NCBI RefSeq assembly: GCF_015627175.1
Contig: NZ_VTDQ01000006.1
Span: 1-64,000 of the forward strand
DNA length: 64,000 nucleotides
Direction: 5' to 3'
Origin: Acinetobacter pollinis
GTDB lineage: Bacteria > Pseudomonadota > Gammaproteobacteria > Pseudomonadales > Moraxellaceae
In this document: in pieces, positions 7,737 to 38,719 of the stretch
Numbering within the stretch: position 1 is the stretch's first letter
Layout of the letters: every line of letters starts with the position of its first letter
The notes under the pieces: generated by a model
What the model was told of the DNA's origin: nothing
Seen by the model: only the letters and a program-made list of their open reading frames with translations
The model's database searches: none
Translations under genes and position numbers: made by a program

Positions 7737-8312
7737 ATGAAAAAATTAATGCTTGCTACACTTTGTGCTTCTACTCTTGTACTTGGTGCATGTGCAAAAA
7801 AACCAGAATCAGCTCAACACAATGATTCTCAAGCACAACAACAAAGTGCTCCAGCAACACCAACATATAGCCAAGACAATGTTGCAGATATCAAAGCAGA
7901 TTTAAAAGCACTTCAAGAACTGTCTAATAAAAAAGCTCAAGAAGGTGTAAAATTCCAAGAAGAAGCTGTGGAAGCAGAAAAATCTGGTAAAGAAGACCAA
8001 ATTCAAGCCATAGTTGGAAAAATGAAAAGTTTTGTTGATGGCTTTAATACGGAACTGACTTCACTTACGCTCAAAAGTGCTGAAGTAAATAGCTTACGCA
8101 TTAAAATGGTAGAATCAAACAATTATGGTCTAGAGCTTGCTCAAGAAAGTATTGCAAAAACACCTGATGAAAAGAAAATGACCGATCTTCAGAAAAAGGT
8201 CAATGATGTACAACAACAAATGTTAGACATCATGCAAAAACTTCAAGCAAAAGTAGGTAACTTACAGCAAGCTGCCTCTGAAGCTCATACAACACCAAAA
8301 ACTGAGAAATAA
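7737..8312 (+). CDS. Predicted coiled-coil lipoprotein of unknown function
   Basis: 191 residues. MKKLMLATLCASTLVLGAC is a lipoprotein signal with the lipidated cysteine at residue 19. A Gln/Ser/Pro-rich linker follows. From about residue 48 to 180 comes a charged helical region (DIKADLKALQELSNKK, KKMTDLQKKVNDVQQQMLD) that reads as coiled coil. There are no catalytic motifs. It is probably anchored to a membrane as a structural or accessory component. It is a single gene with its own hairpin downstream. I do not recognise a named family. Confidence 0.8.
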   Translation: MKKLMLATLCASTLVLGACAKKPESAQHNDSQAQQQSAPATPTYSQDNVADIKADLKALQELSNKKAQEGVKFQEEAVEAEKSGKEDQIQAIVGKMKSFVDGFNTELTSLTLKSAEVNSLRIKMVESNNYGLELAQESIAKTPDEKKMTDLQKKVNDVQQQMLDIMQKLQAKVGNLQQAASEAHTTPKTEK

Positions 8313-29230: not shown

Positions 29231-31357
29231 TTAATACTTAAATTTAAGTGTAAAATTAATTTGACGTGGACTACCTAATGCAACCAATCGGTTCGTATTA
29301 TCTTTATTTGCAATACTGCCCGCATAGTATTCCTTATCAAACATGTTCAATACAGACAATTGAGCCCCCCAATGTTGAGCCTCATATCCAGCCTCAGCAT
29401 CAAATACTGTGTATGCAGGTACATCTATTGAAGCATCACCCGTAATTGGTTTTGCACTTTCACCACGCACTCCAGTTCCAAGATACCATCCTAAAGAATC
29501 ACTCACTGGGTAATAACGCATAGATAGACTATATGTATTCTCGGGGGTGTTTTCTAAACGCTGTCCAATTTTATTTCTATTCGTATCTTTGCTAATTTTT
29601 GCTTCGTACATATGACTAAACGAAGCATTTAAACGAAGCCGATCAGAAAGATTCGCTGTTAATTCAGCTTCTACTCCTTTCGTTTTCTGCTGTCCATCTT
29701 GTACCTGAAAACTAGCATTATTTGGATCTGTGACCAAGACATTATCTAATACAAGGTTATACCAAGACAGTGTTGCTTGTATATTCTGAGCTTCATTCTG
29801 GAATTTAAAACCTGCTTCTAACTGTTTTCCTGTTTGAGGATCAAATGCTTGACCTTGACGATCTGTACCCGATGTCGGTGTAAACGATGTCGAATAGCTT
29901 ACATAAGGTGCAACCCAATGATTAATGTTATATAAAGCAGATGCACTTCCAGTAAATGCATGATGATTCTGACTTGTACTTTTTCCCGTAATTAAATTAT
30001 CTGTAGCTGTTTTTGCCCAATCGTGTCGACCCGCAAGATTTAGAATTAGATTATCTTGAATTGTAAGTTGATCTCTAAGATAAACACCAACATATTCAGT
30101 TTTGGAAACTGTCGATTTAGGCGACAACTGTTTACTACAGTCTACATACGTATTATAAATCGGTTTATAAAAGTTAAAGTTATCTATTTTACAATTAAAG
30201 TTACTTTGCTCACTGCGATCTTTCATTGCATCAACACCCATTAAGATGTTGTGTTCCATACCATAAAATCGAAATGTATTTTTTAACTGGTTGTCGATGG
30301 TATAGTTCAAATTATTATAATGTTGTACATTCGCTTGGCGTGTGATGGTTGTAAAGTTAGAGGTTGGTACCCATTGCACCATTGAAACAAAGCGACCATC
30401 CATAATTGCCTTGCGCACTGCTGCATTTTGTTCAAAATTCCATCCATTTTTAAAGGCATAGTTAAATGTATAACCTAAACGATAAACATCGCCTTTATAT
30501 GGGCCAAATGATGGCTCTCCAAAGAATGTAGAACTTGCCAACTGCCCATTTGGATTCGGCTTAAGCGTACCAATGACAGGTAGTCCTTGCATACGCAAGT
30601 ATTCACGATGCTGATAGCTAGCAACTGTAGATAGTTTTGCCTGATCTCCTAAGTCAAAATTATAAGATGGAGAAATCGAAAAGTTTTTAAAATAAACTTG
30701 ATCTACAGGATCGTTCTGGTCTGCAATACGCCCAGCTAATCGAAAAGCACCTTCTTTAGTTTCATTCGGACTATAATTAAGATCGAATTGAGCTTGTCGA
30801 AAAGCATAACTTCCATAAGTTACATCTACATTTGCAAAGCTCTTCGCCTCTGGACGTTTAGATACTAAATTTACAATACCGCCTGGAAGTGCCTGACCAA
30901 AATTCACCGATGCAGGTCCTTTAATTACCTGTACCTGATCCATTCCAGATAAATCAATCGCAACATCTGAGCTTGTACCCTGACGTAAACCATCTATAAA
31001 GACTTGGTTTGAAGCACTTTGCCCACGAATGATAATGTCATCCCACCCTCTTCGGCTACGATTACCAGCTGACACTCCAGCAATTCCTTTTATTGCATCT
31101 GTTAGTGTAAAAGCTTGTTTTTGATTTAACTGTTCACTTGTCACAACACTTACTGATTGTGCTGTTTGAAACAAGGGAGTATCTGACTTTAGGCCTGATA
31201 CTGCTTTTTTTGCGATATGCTCTTCTTTCTCCTCAGATTTCAACTGAATTGTTGGAAGATTTTGTGCATTATTAGAATTTGCATATACTGAAGAGACTGA
31301 CAATAAAATAGAGGACACAACAGAAAAATATAAGATGTTATAGCGCAGTTGAATCAT
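29231..31357 (-). CDS. TonB-dependent siderophore receptor (second of three)
   Basis: Outer-membrane receptor for a ferric siderophore or related iron chelate, 708 residues. Signal peptide cut after VYA (residue 26), then the possible TonB-box segment LPTIQLKSEE. The plug contains QTAQSVSVVTSEQL, RGWDDIIIRGQSASNQVFIDGLRQG, QVQVIKGPASVNFGQALPGG and IVNLVSKRPE. The beta-barrel ends in an aromatic residue (TLKFKY). A Fur-like site lies 9 bases upstream of the start. The nearest genes are the phosphatase and a symporter. No siderophore synthesis genes are nearby, so it may import foreign siderophores. Confidence 0.93.
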   Translation of the reverse strand: MIQLRYNILYFSVVSSILLSVSSVYANSNNAQNLPTIQLKSEEKEEHIAKKAVSGLKSDTPLFQTAQSVSVVTSEQLNQKQAFTLTDAIKGIAGVSAGNRSRRGWDDIIIRGQSASNQVFIDGLRQGTSSDVAIDLSGMDQVQVIKGPASVNFGQALPGGIVNLVSKRPEAKSFANVDVTYGSYAFRQAQFDLNYSPNETKEGAFRLAGRIADQNDPVDQVYFKNFSISPSYNFDLGDQAKLSTVASYQHREYLRMQGLPVIGTLKPNPNGQLASSTFFGEPSFGPYKGDVYRLGYTFNYAFKNGWNFEQNAAVRKAIMDGRFVSMVQWVPTSNFTTITRQANVQHYNNLNYTIDNQLKNTFRFYGMEHNILMGVDAMKDRSEQSNFNCKIDNFNFYKPIYNTYVDCSKQLSPKSTVSKTEYVGVYLRDQLTIQDNLILNLAGRHDWAKTATDNLITGKSTSQNHHAFTGSASALYNINHWVAPYVSYSTSFTPTSGTDRQGQAFDPQTGKQLEAGFKFQNEAQNIQATLSWYNLVLDNVLVTDPNNASFQVQDGQQKTKGVEAELTANLSDRLRLNASFSHMYEAKISKDTNRNKIGQRLENTPENTYSLSMRYYPVSDSLGWYLGTGVRGESAKPITGDASIDVPAYTVFDAEAGYEAQHWGAQLSVLNMFDKEYYAGSIANKDNTNRLVALGSPRQINFTLKFKY

Positions 31358-33122: not shown

Positions 33123-33731
33123 CTATTTTAAAAAGCCTGAAACCATGCCTAAAACTTTCTGGATATCATCATTTGCTTCTTGACTATTGGTTTGTTCACC
33201 TTTTGGTGTTAAGGCATTAATAATTTGTGGAAGGACTGTACCGATTGCACCATATACATCTTGCTTTTGTGTTTGCGTTTTTTCGGCCACTTGTTCAACA
33301 TCCTGATCATTAAATAAGTTTTGAACATGATCATTCGCTACATCATCATGGCTTGAAGTTGATGGATCAACCCAATTTTGTACCTGACTGGTTAAACCCG
33401 AACCACGCAATTTATCTAAAGCAGCTTGTAAACCACCTTGTTGCTGAATCCAAGATAAAATTAAAGGAACAACTGCAACAAGCAAAGACTGTGTACCTGA
33501 GCTAGAGTTTCCAGCTTGCTCACTTCCACTATTTGAGCTTCCACCAGTGAGCGACCCGAGTACACCACCAAGCATACCACCCAAACCACCTGAAGATGAG
33601 TTACTTTGTCCACTACCAAGTTGTCCCAATACTGAGCCAAGCATCCCCCCCAAACCTGAATTATTCTGGCTTGCCTGACCACCTAGTGCTTGTTTAGCTA
33701 AACTTTCTACAATACTTGTTAAGTCTGTCAT
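33123..33731 (-). CDS. YidB-like DUF937 protein
   Basis: 202 residues. The N-terminal 75 residues contain two similar glycine-rich blocks (SGLGGMLGSVLGQL and GGLGGMLGGVLGSL) separated by Ser/Asn/Gln-rich spacers. The C-terminal part (about 80-150) reads as the DUF937/YidB domain: LLVAVVPLILSWIQQQGGLQAALDKL, SQVQNWVD and LFNDQDVEQVAEKT. There is no signal peptide. Family members are abundant cytoplasmic or envelope-associated proteins of unknown function. It is a single gene that converges on the symporter gene. Confidence 0.85.
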   Translation of the reverse strand: MTDLTSIVESLAKQALGGQASQNNSGLGGMLGSVLGQLGSGQSNSSSGGLGGMLGGVLGSLTGGSSNSGSEQAGNSSSGTQSLLVAVVPLILSWIQQQGGLQAALDKLRGSGLTSQVQNWVDPSTSSHDDVANDHVQNLFNDQDVEQVAEKTQTQKQDVYGAIGTVLPQIINALTPKGEQTNSQEANDDIQKVLGMVSGFLK

Positions 33732-33919
33732 TTTATTAACCTCTATAATTTATATTTAAGTTAGATCTAAAAAACCTTATCTTATTTTATATCGCTCTTC
33801 TGTTCATTTTTGATAACATCAATGAATCAGTCAGATAAACCTCTACATAAGTATATTATATTGCACTATAAAGGATACAGTGCTCATAGCAGATTCTACT
33901 ATGATTATCTAAAGACTTA

Positions 33920-34393
33920 TTACCAACGAAATTTATTCCAATTCTCAGGATTTGCCCAGAATTTTGAATTAAGCCAATCTGGCGTACTTTTATAATCTAA
34001 AATATTAAACTGCCAGAGTTCAAGTATCGGACTATCTCCTTCTCCTTGTTCACGCAACATCTGAGAGAATCCCAATTCACGCATTAAATTGGTATATCGA
34101 CTTGAACACATGACCACCACATGTTTTGCCCATAAATCTCTCAGCTTTACAATTAAATGTGTCTGTTCCGATAGAGATAATCGTTCTACTTCATCATTAA
34201 AAACAACGAAACTCAAGTCATAACGCTGAGTAAATGGCAGATTTAATACCTCAATTACGTTAAAATGTTGCCATTGTATTTTTTTATTGACGTTGTATTG
34301 CGTCATATTTTGCCCAATACATATTGCAGTTCTAATCGACTGCGCTTGAGTCAAATCATCTAGCAAAGACGTAATGACGTTCTGCTCACTCAT
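33920..34393 (-). CDS. Conserved protein, probably DUF6231 family
   Basis: 157 residues without signal or membrane segments. The alternating pattern of hydrophobic strands (TAICIGQNM, YDLSFVVFND, KHVVVMCSSRY) and helices suggests a small Rossmann-like fold. The segment LRDLWAKHVVV followed by RELGF and the C-terminal WLNSKFWANPENWNKFRW is what I associate with DUF6231, a family without assigned function. It is divergent from the DUF2797 gene with a gap of only 34 bases, which suggests shared control. The small overlapping open frame on the other strand at 33810-33995 is judged spurious. Confidence 0.75.
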   Translation of the reverse strand: MSEQNVITSLLDDLTQAQSIRTAICIGQNMTQYNVNKKIQWQHFNVIEVLNLPFTQRYDLSFVVFNDEVERLSLSEQTHLIVKLRDLWAKHVVVMCSSRYTNLMRELGFSQMLREQGEGDSPILELWQFNILDYKSTPDWLNSKFWANPENWNKFRW

Positions 34394-34427
34394 AAACTAC
34401 ACCTTTAAGTCTTAGCGAGAATTTTGT

Positions 34428-35300
34428 ATGGAATTTCAAGGCGTTTGCCATAAAATGCATGCTAATTTAGCCAACCACAGTGTTACACCAAATCATACTG
34501 AGCAGGCAAATGTTGAATATACATTTATTTTAGATCGCTCAAAAGTAGATATTCCTTTTTCATTGGGTCAATCTATTGAAATTTCTTGGACAGGAAATAT
34601 TTATTGCACATCATGCGGAAAAAAAACACCTAAATCTTATTCACAAGGACATTGTTTTAAGTGTTTTAAAACAAAAGCTGAATGCGATATGTGTATTATG
34701 AAGCCAGAAACTTGTCATTACCATATGGGTACATGCCGAGAAGAAGATTTTGCACAGCGTGTATGCTTTCAGCCACATATTGTTTACCTTGCCAATTCGA
34801 GTGGACTAAAGGTCGGTATTACGCGTATCAGTCAAATGCCAACAAGATGGTTAGACCAAGGCGCTAGCCAAGCTTTACCAATAATGAAAGTCGGTTCACG
34901 CCGTTTATCAGGTCACTTAGAAACCATGTTCGCCGAACAAGTTGCCGATAAAACAGATTGGCGCAAGCTTTTGAAAGGCTCCCCTGAACCACTTGATCTT
35001 TTGGAAATTCGAGATGAGTTAATTGGAGAATTCCAAGATCAAATTGAAGAAATTAGTAATGAATTTTCACTGAATTTAGACTTTAATGAAGATGTAGAAC
35101 TTCTTTTATCTGAAAAGCCGAAATCATTTATTTATCCGATTGCACAATATCCTACCAAAATTAAGTCTTTAAACTTGGATAAAACACCAACTATACAAGG
35201 GATACTACAGGGGATTAAAGGCCAGTATCTCATGCTAGATACCGGCGTGATTAATATTCGCAAATATACAGGATACGAACTCATTATTCGCTTTCATTAA
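34428..35300 (+). CDS. DUF2797 protein with zinc-ribbon and GIY-YIG-like segment
   Basis: 290 residues, no signal peptide. A four-cysteine zinc ribbon (Cys60, 63, 76, 79) is followed by a second Cys/His cluster (Cys86, Cys89, Cys96, His98, Cys103). Then comes HIVYLANSSGLKVGITRI (about 117-134) with RWLDQGA. That part resembles the start of GIY-YIG/T5orf172-like nuclease domains (a tyrosine strand, then KVGIT, then an arginine). The C-terminal third is helical and acidic, ending in a beta-rich tail. The family name DUF2797 fits; the biochemical role is unknown. It is divergent from the DUF6231-like gene. Confidence 0.83.
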   Translation: MEFQGVCHKMHANLANHSVTPNHTEQANVEYTFILDRSKVDIPFSLGQSIEISWTGNIYCTSCGKKTPKSYSQGHCFKCFKTKAECDMCIMKPETCHYHMGTCREEDFAQRVCFQPHIVYLANSSGLKVGITRISQMPTRWLDQGASQALPIMKVGSRRLSGHLETMFAEQVADKTDWRKLLKGSPEPLDLLEIRDELIGEFQDQIEEISNEFSLNLDFNEDVELLLSEKPKSFIYPIAQYPTKIKSLNLDKTPTIQGILQGIKGQYLMLDTGVINIRKYTGYELIIRFH

Positions 35301-35313
35301 ATTTAACGCTATC

Positions 35314-36489
35314 TTACCGTGCCACTAATTTTAAAATAGCTTCAACTGGATTTTCAGTGTTTCCTGAAATCAATTGCTTATGTGCGGTAAGATGTTGCAT
35401 TTTTTGAATCTGCGCAGCCTCTTGATTCACTAATTTTTTTAGAGCTTGTGCAAGGGCTTCAGTCGTTGCATGGTCTTGTACAAGCTCATCAATTATTTTT
35501 TTACCAGCAATAATGTTAGGTAATGAAAAATAAGGAATTTTGACCATTCTTTTTGCAATCTGATAAGTAAACCAATTGAGCTTATAAAAAGTAACCATGG
35601 GTTTATGTAACAACATACCTTCTAACGTAGCCGTTCCAGAGGCGAGTGCGACAATATCACTCGCTGCCATAACTTGGCGACCTATTTTCGATTCAGTTTG
35701 TGTATTTTCTAAAATATGTACTTTACGCTGAAAATCTAAAGAATAGGATGACAATACTTCTTCAATCTGGATTTTTCTTTTTTCATTAATTGCAGGTACC
35801 AAGTATTCGTAATTCGGATAATCTTTTTGTAAAATTTCTGCCGCACCAAAAACCAAAGGTGCTAGACGCTCAACCTCTCCACGGCGACTACCTGGTAATA
35901 ACCCAATATAAGCCACATCTTTGTTTAGATTTAATTCTGTTTTCGCCTTTAAAGTATCATTTTCTAGTGGCATTTTTTTCGCAAGTGGGTGCCCAACAAA
36001 AATTGCAGGAACGGCATGTTTTGCATAAAACTGTTTTTCAAATGGGAATAAACATAATACGAGATCAATTGTTTTTTGAATTCCTAAAACACGTTTTTGT
36101 CTCCATGCCCACACAGATGGACTTACATATTGAACAGTTTTAATAGGAAGTTTTTTTTGCTTAATTTTTTTAGAGAGTCTCAAATTAAAGTCAGGTGCAT
36201 CAATACCAATAAATACATCTACAGGGTTTTTTGTCCACGTTTCAACTAAACCATCACGTATGGCAAACAGTGCCTTTAAATCTTTCAAAACTTCAACAAT
36301 ACCCATTACAGATAATGTTTCCATTGGATAAAAACTCTCGAATCCCTCTGCAATCATTTGTGGCCCACCTACTCCCTCAAAAATTGCATCAATACCTTGT
36401 GCTTTAAATTGACGTATAAGCTCTGCCCCAAGCGTGTCTCCAGAGACCTCACCAACGACCATACCAATTCTTAAGGGTTGTTTTTGCAC
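35314..36489 (-). CDS. lpxB: Lipid-A-disaccharide synthase
   Basis: LpxB joins UDP-2,3-diacylglucosamine and lipid X to form the lipid A disaccharide at the inner membrane (GT19 family). 391 residues. Signatures: the N-terminal RIGMVVGEVSGDTLGAELI, the FIGIDAPDFN strand, VQYVSPSVWAWRQKR, the GLLPGSRRGEVERLAP donor-site loop and SGTATLEGMLLHKPMV. The start is a GTG at 36489 with AAGGA 9 bases upstream. It is apart from the usual lpxD-fabZ-lpxA cluster and is a single gene, opposite to the neighbouring genes. Confidence 0.97.
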   Translation of the reverse strand: MQKQPLRIGMVVGEVSGDTLGAELIRQFKAQGIDAIFEGVGGPQMIAEGFESFYPMETLSVMGIVEVLKDLKALFAIRDGLVETWTKNPVDVFIGIDAPDFNLRLSKKIKQKKLPIKTVQYVSPSVWAWRQKRVLGIQKTIDLVLCLFPFEKQFYAKHAVPAIFVGHPLAKKMPLENDTLKAKTELNLNKDVAYIGLLPGSRRGEVERLAPLVFGAAEILQKDYPNYEYLVPAINEKRKIQIEEVLSSYSLDFQRKVHILENTQTESKIGRQVMAASDIVALASGTATLEGMLLHKPMVTFYKLNWFTYQIAKRMVKIPYFSLPNIIAGKKIIDELVQDHATTEALAQALKKLVNQEAAQIQKMQHLTAHKQLISGNTENPVEAILKLVAR

Positions 36490-36585: not shown

Positions 36586-36637
36586 GATTAAGAGCAAGAT
36601 CTCTATATAATCACCCTTTATTTTTGGGGAAGTGATA

Positions 36638-38719
36638 ATGAACAAGCACTTACTTTATATTTGTATTTTTAGCTCTATATACCATACCGCTTTTGCGGAT
36701 GATCAGGTTCTTCCAACCATTTCTTTACAATCTCAGCCAAATACGCAAACATACTCAGACTATCAATCAAATACTTCAACACGAACACCAACATCTATTC
36801 AAGAAACACCACAAGAAGTAATCATCATCAATAAAAATATTTTGAATGATATTCAAGCAACACGATTGTCAGATGGTTTAGATATTGCGGGTATTGGCCG
36901 TGGTAATAACTTTGGGGGTCAAGGTTTAACCACATATACAGTTCGTGGTTTTACAAGTGGTGAATATTTTAAAAATGGTTTTCCAATTAATCGTGGTTAC
37001 CCTAATTCACCAGATAGCAATACCATTGAACATATTGATATTATTAAAGGGCCTGCTGCAACATTGTATGGTCGAACTGATCCTGGGGGAACATTCAATA
37101 TCGTAAGTAAAGCCCCTCAAAATAAGCAATCTACAGAGCTCGGTGCACTTATAGATAGCGAAGGATTATTTAGAAGCACTTTAGATACAACAGGCCCACT
37201 TAGTAAAACATTTAGTTATCGTTTAAATGCTATGTCTGAAACAGGTGACACCTATAGAGAGGGTGTTAGAACCAAAAGATGGGATATCTCCCCTGTCCTA
37301 CAATGGCAACCTTCTGATCAAACCAAGGTTATACTTGAAGCTGACTTCTTAAGGAATCAACACCCTTTAGATCGAGGCTTTACAAGATACACAGGACAAA
37401 GCAAGACAAATTTTGATTCAAGCACAAACTGGTGGGAATCAGGCAAAGATAGAAATGAGTTAACCAATAGTAACGACATGGTTCAACTACGCTTAGAGCA
37501 AACACTTAGTCCAAACTGGAAACTCAATATTGGTGGGCAATATTTAAAAGGTGACTTACAGGGCTATGCTGTAGAAGCTTATGGTTTAAAAGCCAACACC
37601 AGTGGTAATGTCATTACACGTAACTACAATTGGCGTCATTTGTCTTGGGAAGATAAAGACTTCCAAGTAAATATTACAGGTCAATTTGACTTATTTAATA
37701 TGCAACACACGCTTATTTCTGGAGTAGAGCTTGAAGAATATGACTATCGCTCCTTTATTATTCGCTCTCCTAAAAGTGCTAATTTTGACTTAAACATAAA
37801 TCAACCTACACTAGGGCAAACACTTCCTGCACTAACAAGTGTAACCACACATGATCATGAAACGTTAAAAAGCCAAGCATACTTTGTTCAAGATCAAATT
37901 GCCTTATCGTCACAGTTAAAGGCACTATTGGGTCTACGTTATGAAACGTATAAAGATAACTATACAGATTTTTTAGCTTCTTCGGGTTGGACAGCCAGTG
38001 AAGATGCGCTCATACCTCGATTTGGGCTTATTTTTACCCCAAACAATGATTTCAGCCTTTATACCAGTATAAGTAAATCATTTAAGCCAAATACAGGTGC
38101 AGATCGATTTGGTAAAGGTTTCTCACCTGAAACTGGCATGTCATATGAGCTTGGATCAAAGTGGCAGATTATTCCAAATCGCTTAAATGCAGATGTAGCA
38201 GTATATTATACCAAGAAAGAAAATGTACTTACTTTAGACCCACTAGATACAACCAAATCAATTGCAGCAGGTGAAGTATCTAGTAAAGGGCTTGATTTCA
38301 ATATTACTGGGCAAATTACAGACTCATTCAAAATTATTGGAAACTATGCCTATGTAGATGCTGCTGTGCTTAAAGATAATACTTTGAAGAAAGGGACTCA
38401 CCTTGCCAACATCCCAAAAAACAGCCTAAATATTTTAGCAATGTATGACATTCAATTAGGGCAACTCAATGGGTTAAGTTTGGGAATTAATCAACACTTT
38501 ATTGATCGAAGAAAAGGACTGACTTCAAATACAAGTTATGATATGCCTGCTTACGCCACTACAGACTTACTTGTGACATATAAAGCAACTGAGAATCTAA
38601 AATTTAGTTTAAACATCAGAAATCTTTTCGACAAAAACTATGATAGCAGTGCATTTAATATGTATGTTTATCCGGGACAAGGAAGAAATTCACAGTTTGG
38701 TGTAACCTACAAATTTTAA
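36638..38719 (+). CDS. TonB-dependent siderophore receptor (third of three)
   Basis: Outer-membrane ferric-siderophore receptor, 693 residues from the ATG at 36638, which has GGGGA 8 bases upstream; the open frame begins two codons earlier at a GTG. Signal peptide cut after AFA (residue 20), then the LPTISLQSQP segment. The plug contains IQETPQEVIIINKNIL, YTVRGFTSGEYFKNGFPINR, HIDIIKGPAATLYGRTDPGG and FNIVSKAPQ, and the barrel ends with VTYKF. It is close in type to FhuE/FpvA-like receptors. The best Fur box of the window lies upstream. A hairpin follows, and a TSUP exporter gene is 192 bases further on. Confidence 0.94.
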   Translation: MNKHLLYICIFSSIYHTAFADDQVLPTISLQSQPNTQTYSDYQSNTSTRTPTSIQETPQEVIIINKNILNDIQATRLSDGLDIAGIGRGNNFGGQGLTTYTVRGFTSGEYFKNGFPINRGYPNSPDSNTIEHIDIIKGPAATLYGRTDPGGTFNIVSKAPQNKQSTELGALIDSEGLFRSTLDTTGPLSKTFSYRLNAMSETGDTYREGVRTKRWDISPVLQWQPSDQTKVILEADFLRNQHPLDRGFTRYTGQSKTNFDSSTNWWESGKDRNELTNSNDMVQLRLEQTLSPNWKLNIGGQYLKGDLQGYAVEAYGLKANTSGNVITRNYNWRHLSWEDKDFQVNITGQFDLFNMQHTLISGVELEEYDYRSFIIRSPKSANFDLNINQPTLGQTLPALTSVTTHDHETLKSQAYFVQDQIALSSQLKALLGLRYETYKDNYTDFLASSGWTASEDALIPRFGLIFTPNNDFSLYTSISKSFKPNTGADRFGKGFSPETGMSYELGSKWQIIPNRLNADVAVYYTKKENVLTLDPLDTTKSIAAGEVSSKGLDFNITGQITDSFKIIGNYAYVDAAVLKDNTLKKGTHLANIPKNSLNILAMYDIQLGQLNGLSLGINQHFIDRRKGLTSNTSYDMPAYATTDLLVTYKATENLKFSLNIRNLFDKNYDSSAFNMYVYPGQGRNSQFGVTYKF

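Follow-up and report, generated by a model that had tools for sequence, protein, structure and literature searches.

A Probable GIY-YIG Superfamily Member of the DUF2797 Family, Encoded Divergently from a DUF6231 Gene in Acinetobacter pollinis

The Divergent DUF6231–DUF2797 Locus

We analyzed a stretch of 64,000 nucleotides from Acinetobacter pollinis (contig NZ_VTDQ01000006.1, positions 1 to 64,000; hereafter the window), in which a DUF6231 gene and a DUF2797 gene are transcribed away from each other. An earlier note, made from the letters alone, had placed the two genes and a 34-base gap between them, and this arrangement is borne out by the open reading frames (ORFs), the Pfam matches, and the sequence. 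The features of the locus are given below in window positions, with the basis of each in parentheses; A3 and A5 are alignments described with the conserved residues, and pLDDT is the predicted local distance difference test of an AlphaFold2 model.

33920–34393, minus strand: DUF6231 gene, 157 amino acids, predicted small alpha/beta (Rossmann-like) protein (ORF; Pfam PF19742, E = 7.7e-37; AlphaFold2 model, pLDDT 70.7)
33923–33994, minus strand: C-terminal tail of DUF6231, residues 134–157, YKxxPDWLN...WANPEN...W-stop (alignment, tail search)
34394–34427, no strand: 34-base gap between the divergent start codons (sequence)
34428–35300, plus strand: DUF2797 gene, 290 amino acids, predicted GIY-YIG-fold nuclease with a Cys-rich module and terminal beta strands (PF10977, E = 3.8e-98; AlphaFold2 model)
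34431–34604, plus strand: N-terminal strands of DUF2797, residues 2–59, perhaps one beta region with the C-terminal strands (DSSP of the model)
34605–34664, plus strand: four-cysteine ribbon C60, C63, C76, C79 (81/81 A3 rows)
34683–34778, plus strand: second Cys/His cluster C86, C89, C96, H97, C103, C113, H117 (81/81 A3 rows, in part imposed by the search pattern)
34776–34976, plus strand: GIY-YIG-like core, residues 117–183, with Y120, K128-V129-G130, R140, and E165 (model, Slx1/UvrC matches, invariance, profiles)
35190–35294, plus strand: C-terminal strands, residues 255–289, with G262 and G265 invariant (model and A5 alignment)

The nearest named loci are those of Acinetobacter (72–76% identity to the window), and in all 14 of them the genes are divergent and separated by 32–37 bases. 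The base composition of the pair is native, with a G+C content of 36.1% compared to 36.9% for the whole window. The gap had been called too short for fully separate promoters, a statement that our scan of positions 33700–35500 did not establish: it returned three promoter-like sites, fewer than the 7.0 that chance predicts, and three terminator-like sites, more than the 0.9 predicted, the latter all inside coding regions, and was uninformative on this point. It is possible that promoters lie within either coding region.

DUF2797 Is Predicted to Adopt a GIY-YIG Fold

For DUF2797, AlphaFold2 modeling with 80 relatives alongside the window protein gave a pLDDT of 89.5 and a predicted template modeling score of 0.87. 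The model contains the strand-strand-helix-strand-helix core of the GIY-YIG superfamily, with strands at residues 117–123, 127–133, and 148–155 and helices at residues 139–143, 158–169, and 178–183. Tyr120 is placed on strand 1, Lys128–Gly130 on strand 2, Arg140 on helix 1, and Glu165 on helix 2. The same layout has been described for Slx1, with GIY in strand 1, YIG in strand 2, and then one helix bearing an arginine and another bearing a glutamate (PMC8599992; this and the other papers cited here are drawn on through excerpts).

When the model was compared with known structures using VIA-align, the top five of 20 rows were all Slx1 (Z = 5.5, 5.3, 5.1, 4.7, and 4.6, over 91–95 residues), followed by two yeast mitochondrial ribosome chains (3j6b_d and 9hlz_dd, Z = 3.8 and 3.2); the GIY-YIG domain of UvrC (1yd6_A) matched with a Z of 3.2 over 60 residues at a root-mean-square deviation of 2.8. 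The Z values are of middling size, and the matches persuade because the leading rows all belong to a single superfamily and span the residues where the core was expected. The VIA-align output comes without residue pairs, and a superposition of the catalytic residues is presumed. Of 50 rows displayed for a viral structure library, 7 bear the names of GIY-YIG, CapR-type, or Hef-like nucleases, none of them significant; T5orf172 chains were not in the structural match list, an absence that carries no evidential weight. For the terminal strands, the VIA-align matches, which span model residues 1 to 290, are weak: a phage endosialidase has a Z of 3.0, and the Upf1, Ighmbp2, and Sen1 chains have Z values of 2.1–2.5.

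The Residues of the Predicted GIY-YIG Active Site Are Conserved in DUF2797

We examined conservation in three alignments. A1 comprises the window protein and 20 proteins found in a phylum sample with a hidden Markov model, covering 21 of the 38 genomes that bear the family (12 loci judged redundant by eye and five genomes not extracted were left out). A3 comprises the window protein and 80 loci of named genomes, the best 80 of 586 confirmed ones. These loci were selected with two peptide patterns, which contain PTRW and CH..GTCR, so that invariance in A3 at the pattern positions is partly forced; A1 and A5 are free of this bias. A5 has eight rows: the window protein, three sequences shared with A1, and four that BLAST recovered from plasmid records of Acaryochloris, Alteromonas, and two haloarchaea and that are 24–49% identical to the window.

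The mean column identity of A5 is 41%, and 20 of its columns are invariant, the start methionine being the first. Ten of these form a GIY-YIG-like signature (Tyr120, Lys128-Val129-Gly130, Thr132, Arg140, Gln144-Gly145-Ala146, and Glu165), and Ala149 is likewise invariant in 8/8 rows. Tyr120, Lys128-Val129-Gly130, Arg140, and Glu165 are unchanged in all 25 rows of A1 and A5 together, two of which are archaeal, and Tyr120 is also found in 81/81 rows of A3. DUF2797 thus carries the [Y or K]-[IV]-G second half-motif as K128-V129-G130, as well as the arginine in the first helix and the glutamate in the second (R140 and E165) that are found in the GIY-YIG superfamily. The earlier note had pointed out a four-cysteine ribbon, a second Cys/His cluster, and a VYLANSSGLKVGITR segment (residues 119–133), all of which are present, and it had named the loss of the catalytic Tyr, Arg, and Glu as grounds for abandoning the GIY-YIG idea; all three occur in 25/25 rows.

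We then aligned the 25 DUF2797 rows with 16 T5orf172 domains of the same phylum (from 25 loci, of which two were dropped at contig ends and seven, weak or partial, were unused). All 41 rows agree in the Tyr, Lys, and Gly columns, and the glutamate is found in 25/25 DUF2797 and 15/16 T5orf172 rows (40/41). The arginine occupies the same column in 25/25 DUF2797 and 9/16 T5orf172 rows. A histidine four residues past the glutamate is present in 15/16 T5orf172 rows versus 0/25 DUF2797 rows, where the column is that of Ala169.

Profile comparison with hhalign employed two core profiles, a narrower one based on A3 and a broader one based on A1 and A5, along with 43 decoy families. The broad profile scored 29.6 against T5orf172, 30.1 against MUG113, and 21.6 against the GIY-YIG family PF01541, compared to a decoy maximum of 16.0, all three scores thus exceeding those of the 43 decoys. 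The corresponding scores of the narrower profile were 23.9, 25.6, and 19.1, with maxima of 14.5, 15.9, and 17.6 in thirty column shuffles each. As a positive control, T5orf172 against PF01541 gave a probability of 91.5%. A PHROGs scan returned weak matches only (best E = 0.019), and searches of Protein Data Bank (PDB) sequences with the DUF2797 and DUF6231 profiles gave nothing meaningful. The suggestion that DUF2797 resembles GIY-YIG/T5orf172 domains is supported by the predicted fold, by the invariant Tyr/Lys-Val-Gly/Arg/Glu set, and, although PF01541 is separated from the decoys with the broad profile only, by the profile comparison, and we consider DUF2797 a probable member of the GIY-YIG superfamily on the strength of model and sequence.

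Distribution and Genomic Context of DUF2797

Of 299 genomes of the window's phylum, 38 carry a single copy of DUF2797, and among 14 control genomes the family occurs in Haloferax volcanii. In genome G050 (C1:2872124–2872821) the gene is split into two overlapping parts, one of which contains an in-frame stop, and may be a pseudogene. The family has been described as slowly changing and uncharacterized, with 50 proteins in 50 Flavobacteriales genomes, a variability of 0.45, and a zinc ribbon (PMC9425974). Many Gammaproteobacteria share the gene row nadK–metallophosphoesterase–rhomboid–DUF1315–DUF2797–pepN: within 6 kb of DUF2797 in 80 named loci we counted relatives of nadK in 30, the metallophosphoesterase in 26, the rhomboid gene in 30, DUF1315 in 29, and pepN in 21, and pepN is the next gene after DUF2797 in 20 of the 80. 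The association with rhomboid and M1-peptidase genes has also been noted by a language-model study (PMC12804078). Outside the pepN row, neighbor clusters in the 66 non-Acinetobacter loci are lineage-specific and span only 4–7 loci each.

A mobile or phage origin of DUF2797 was considered and rejected: 15 viral-contig stretches matched the search pattern and none encoded a relative. The only two phage records that do contain DUF2797, both labeled "Acinetobacter phage MD-2021a" (L232, CAKLQH020000018.1, and H17), look mislabeled, and the one examined carries chromosomal lpxB and porB. Fifteen plasmid records hold a DUF2797 relative, three of which (A. baumannii, 3.7–4.1 Mb) are evidently chromosomes; the other twelve measure 0.2–2.1 Mb. 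The view that both genes are house genes rather than mobile mostly holds, though a number of DUF2797 relatives are plasmid-borne.

Two of the plasmid loci have neighbors that we record here. On the conjugative Acaryochloris plasmid pREC4 (L231, 2967–5768), a DUF2797 gene whose product is about 50% identical lies just downstream of an RNB-domain ribonuclease gene, and on a Halocatena salina plasmid (L228, 4824–8464) DUF2797 is followed on the same strand, after ∼540 bases, by a Piwi-domain gene.

DUF6231 Has a Conserved C-Terminal Tail and Perhaps a Small Alpha/Beta Fold

Seventeen of 21 DUF6231 loci were aligned, four having been left out as redundant by eye. Of the eight residues invariant in all 17 rows, seven fall in the last 24 residues, and the final Trp is kept in 17/17. 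When one member's tail was used as a query, a single site per genome turned up in 25 of 115 genomes of the order; the open frames concerned, 106–317 amino acids long, are presumed to be DUF6231.

The AlphaFold2 model of DUF6231, built from 15 Acinetobacter rows, is of moderate quality, with pLDDT values of 44–50 in blocks of the tail. Foldseek found no match at E ≤ 0.001 (0/924), and acetyltransferases and methyltransferases alike were among the rows. By VIA-align, the NodS methyltransferase (6.9) and a Nudix protein (6.8) headed many methyltransferases and acetyltransferases near 6. Weak Pfam matches among the 17 members were to Methyltransf_12 in three (best E = 0.065) and to Methyltransf_25 in one (E = 0.0091). 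DUF6231 resembles Class I S-adenosylmethionine (SAM) methyltransferases in its modeled strand order, in NodS as the top row, and in a D-x-L-E-H-like stretch, and differs from them in the absence of GxGxG, in the ties with Nudix and acetyltransferase folds, and in having its own C-terminal tail. The proposal of a small Rossmann-type protein, perhaps a degenerate methyltransferase, is plausible yet weak: at a pLDDT of 70.7, methyltransferase, acetyltransferase, and Nudix folds tie, and the degenerate methyltransferase is a reasonable lead and nothing firmer.

A ychJ gene lies within 1.5 kb in 10 of the 21 DUF6231 loci, directly downstream on the same strand in nine (putatively Pseudomonas-like genomes), and an annotated P. 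aeruginosa record has a 2-base gap between DUF6231 and ychJ. Among the papers listed in a literature search, none dealt with ychJ function. In genome G062, which lies outside the 115-genome sample, a second copy of the end of the DUF6231 tail occurs upstream of ychJ. The 3-kb insert between DUF6231 and ychJ there appears by eye to encode an amino-acid permease and an Lrp-type regulator. On either side of it stands the same stretch of ∼42 bases from the DUF6231 3′ end, an exact direct repeat (L054, 4793–4837 and about 7896–7938) like that of an integration site.

The Two Genes Are Neighbors in One Family

In the phylum sample, both families occur in 17 genomes, DUF2797 alone in 21, and DUF6231 alone in 4; one further DUF6231 match (G284) fell below the cut-off and was dropped. 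The two genes are neighbors in three of the 17 genomes, all from the window's family, and lie apart in 14, of which eight have at least 49 kb between the genes on one contig and six have them on different contigs. Among 149 genomes of the window's family, DUF2797 occurs in 80 and DUF6231 in 110; both are found in 71, DUF2797 alone in 9, DUF6231 alone in 39 (34 in genus g3 and 5 in g158), and neither in 30. The pair is adjacent and divergent in 70 of the 71, with 128–607 bases between the profile matches. The lone exception (G367) cannot be judged, as its genome is 59% complete and both genes sit no more than 200 bases from the start of a contig. In the single g3 genome viewed (G074), DUF6231 is directly beside a pepN-like gene, the place held by DUF2797 in the related G078.

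The divergent arrangement is beyond chance within the window's family. Phylogenetic linkage of the two families, which the earlier note had made a test of its "two-protein system," was probed by co-occurrence, and this was rejected as evidence for a partnership: within the family, the co-occurrence (71, 9, 39, and 30 genomes) has a Fisher p of 1.1e-5, which follows genus boundaries and is not based on independent genomes, and in 26 sampled genomes of the order (17 with both, 6 with DUF2797 only, 2 with DUF6231 only, 1 with neither) p is 1.0. As a general statement the two-protein system does not stand, since among the genomes examined the genes are adjacent only in the window's family and have other neighbors elsewhere, with DUF6231 alone in 39/149. 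Adjacency is thus conserved in one family, but neither gene needs the other, and DUF6231 is not an obligate, and probably not a fixed, partner of DUF2797. In Moraxellaceae the shared divergent start region perhaps accounts for the kept adjacency and may allow co-regulation of the two genes.

A Predicted Lys-Type GIY-YIG Nuclease

Among known proteins, the nearest to DUF2797 in signature are T5orf172 (PF10544) and MUG113 (PF13455), which share the VY...K[IV]G.T...R...E pattern, a lysine in the second half-motif, and commonly attached zinc fingers. T5orf172 is a GIY-YIG subfamily that in phages is usually joined to zinc-finger domains such as CapR, DUF723, and DUF4397 (PMC10448857). DUF2797 differs from both in having no Pfam match to either model, in lacking the T5orf172 histidine after the glutamate, in carrying its Cys-rich module before the core, and in being encoded mostly by ordinary chromosomal genes with no sign of homing. 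Slx1 provides the best VIA-align matches and the same layout of arginine helix and glutamate helix; it differs in its RING domain, and its activity depends on Slx4 (PMC8599992). This RING-type zinc domain, which follows the core in Slx1, is absent from the DUF2797 of the window, where no cysteine occurs past residue 113. The N-terminal GIY-YIG domain of UvrC is a fold match, and UvrC-type domains are not among the Pfam matches. DUF2797 is accordingly filed neither as T5orf172, given the Pfam score and the missing histidine, nor as Slx1, given the missing RING.

Taken whole, our observations are likely best explained by a mostly chromosomal DUF2797 that is probably a zinc-binding, Lys-type GIY-YIG endonuclease, with DUF6231 as a small protein that may dock by its tail and is not an obligate partner. 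The active site of DUF2797 would be of the lysine type seen in T5orf172/MUG113 and in the restriction enzyme R.Hpy188I, the likeness to the latter being drawn from its published description. The fold, the conserved residues, and the gene order have computational support; by kinship, Glu165 would bind one divalent metal, Tyr120 or Lys128 would activate water for one-metal hydrolysis, and Arg140 would hold the phosphate, while the Cys-rich module and the terminal beta strands may grip the substrate. That substrate, we guess from kinship only, could be a branched or otherwise structured nucleic acid, handled in housekeeping rather than in defense or homing, and DUF2797 probably serves an ordinary housekeeping task in bacteria and some archaea. 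DUF6231, perhaps a methyltransferase fold without cofactor, may act by docking through its conserved tail.

Several observations weigh against this explanation. The second tyrosine, classical in YIG, is Lys128 in DUF2797. The hhalign probabilities were 59% (T5orf172), 64% (MUG113), and 12% (PF01541) with the broad profile, and 20–33% (T5orf172/MUG113) and 5.5% (PF01541) with the narrower one, whose best decoy scored the same 19.1 as PF01541, giving no separation. A Pfam scan matched no GIY-YIG model to any of 81 + 8 DUF2797 members at E ≤ 5, with filters that remove most hits weaker than 0.1. Foldseek found nothing for the DUF2797 model at E ≤ 0.001 in the PDB (0/67) or the viral library (0/168), and the VIA-align Z values were all below 8, a range that the tool flags as maybe a mere common arrangement. 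Only C60 and C79 of the ribbon and C103 and H117 of the second cluster are kept in 8/8 A5 rows; the Natronorubrum row is without most ribbon cysteines and the Alteromonas row without C113, losses which indicate that zinc is not universal in DUF2797. The twelve plasmid or second-chromosome records with a relative, which include the conjugative Acaryochloris plasmid and two haloarchaeal ones, show that the gene is not always chromosomal. The glycine-rich SAM motif GxGxG is absent from DUF6231, which has one loop glycine in 13/17 rows, and hhalign of DUF6231 against Methyltransf_12 gave a probability of 1.7% (score 19.4; 30 shuffles reached 14.9). Both the cleavage activity and the substrate of DUF2797 are predictions.

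The lysine in place of the second tyrosine also speaks for DUF2797 being a GIY-YIG-fold protein that binds nucleic acid or serves a structural role without cutting, as do the two yeast mitochondrial ribosome chains in the VIA-align list and the papers naming DUF2797, which in the excerpts consulted do not call the family a nuclease. In R.Hpy188I, however, a lysine replaces the same tyrosine and the superfamily assignment stood, its authors proposing either this lysine or one of two tyrosines as a possible general base (PMC2630997). Moreover, few residues are retained in the most divergent DUF2797 rows, and the catalytic Tyr, Arg, and Glu belong to them, whereas dead relatives would be expected to lose these; we judge the non-nuclease explanation unlikely. 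An extension of the nuclease hypothesis holds that Gammaproteobacteria, Flavobacteriales, and haloarchaea have in DUF2797 a so far unrecognized housekeeping nuclease with structure specificity, the functional equivalent of Slx1 in prokaryotes, and that in Moraxellaceae a cofactor-less methyltransferase-fold protein checks or recruits it through its conserved tail; in this full form it is speculative and very unlikely.

The relation between the two proteins can be read in other ways as well. That DUF6231 acts with YchJ, its adjacency to DUF2797 being an accident of Moraxellaceae gene order, agrees with the nine same-strand downstream ychJ genes among ten nearby ones in 21 loci and with the 2-base gap in P. 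aeruginosa; we nonetheless find it rather unlikely, as the window's genome has ychJ on another contig, and the other 11 of 21 loci have none within 1.5 kb, an insert intervening in one of these (G062). A genuine two-protein unit confined to Moraxellaceae, in which DUF6231 binds and regulates DUF2797, would account for the adjacency in 70/71 genomes and in 14/14 named Acinetobacter loci, where no pepN, yeaC, or nadK turned up inside 6 kb, and for a conserved DUF6231 tail suggestive of docking. The 34 g3 and 5 g158 genomes have DUF6231 and no DUF2797, though, the tail is equally conserved where the genes lie apart, and shared regulation alone could explain the adjacency, all of which leaves such a unit distinctly unlikely. 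The same adjacency could mark the relic of a restriction-modification system, with DUF2797 as nuclease and DUF6231 as degenerate methyltransferase, and T5orf172-type genes are indeed found beside methyltransferases, as in dnmA-yeeB-yeeC of B. subtilis (PMC9973331). With the genes apart in 14/17 phylum genomes, DUF6231 alone in 39/149 family genomes, no target-recognition domain among the Pfam matches, and no conserved SAM motif in DUF6231, we regard a relic of this kind as extremely improbable. A restriction-modification or other defense system at the locus was also rejected by PADLOC, which matched none of five proteins at E ≤ 1.

In the excerpts of the literature searched, from which preprints and most subscription journals were outside, DUF2797 is not called a GIY-YIG protein or a nuclease, and DUF6231 is not mentioned. 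The family is not named in the parts examined of a 2006 survey of the GIY-YIG superfamily, and broader searches on GIY-YIG families gave nothing on DUF2797 among the matches listed; databases may already place it in the GIY-YIG group. A predicted nuclease fold and four named active-site residues make the role of DUF2797 readily testable, and the family, if active, would be a core, mostly non-mobile addition to a superfamily best known for repair, homing, and restriction. Slowly changing uncharacterized families, DUF2797 included, are expected to be important in Flavobacteriales (PMC9425974), and the gene is of moderate interest because it is old, probably core, and directly testable.

Flanking Genes

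Next to DUF6231 in the window, positions 33123–33731 encode a YidB-like protein whose N-terminal half is rich in Gly, Ser, and Gln. Farther out, two similar long ORFs lie on either side of the pair (29231–31357, minus strand, and 36632–38719, plus strand); they form one BLAST cluster and appear by eye to encode TonB-dependent receptors.

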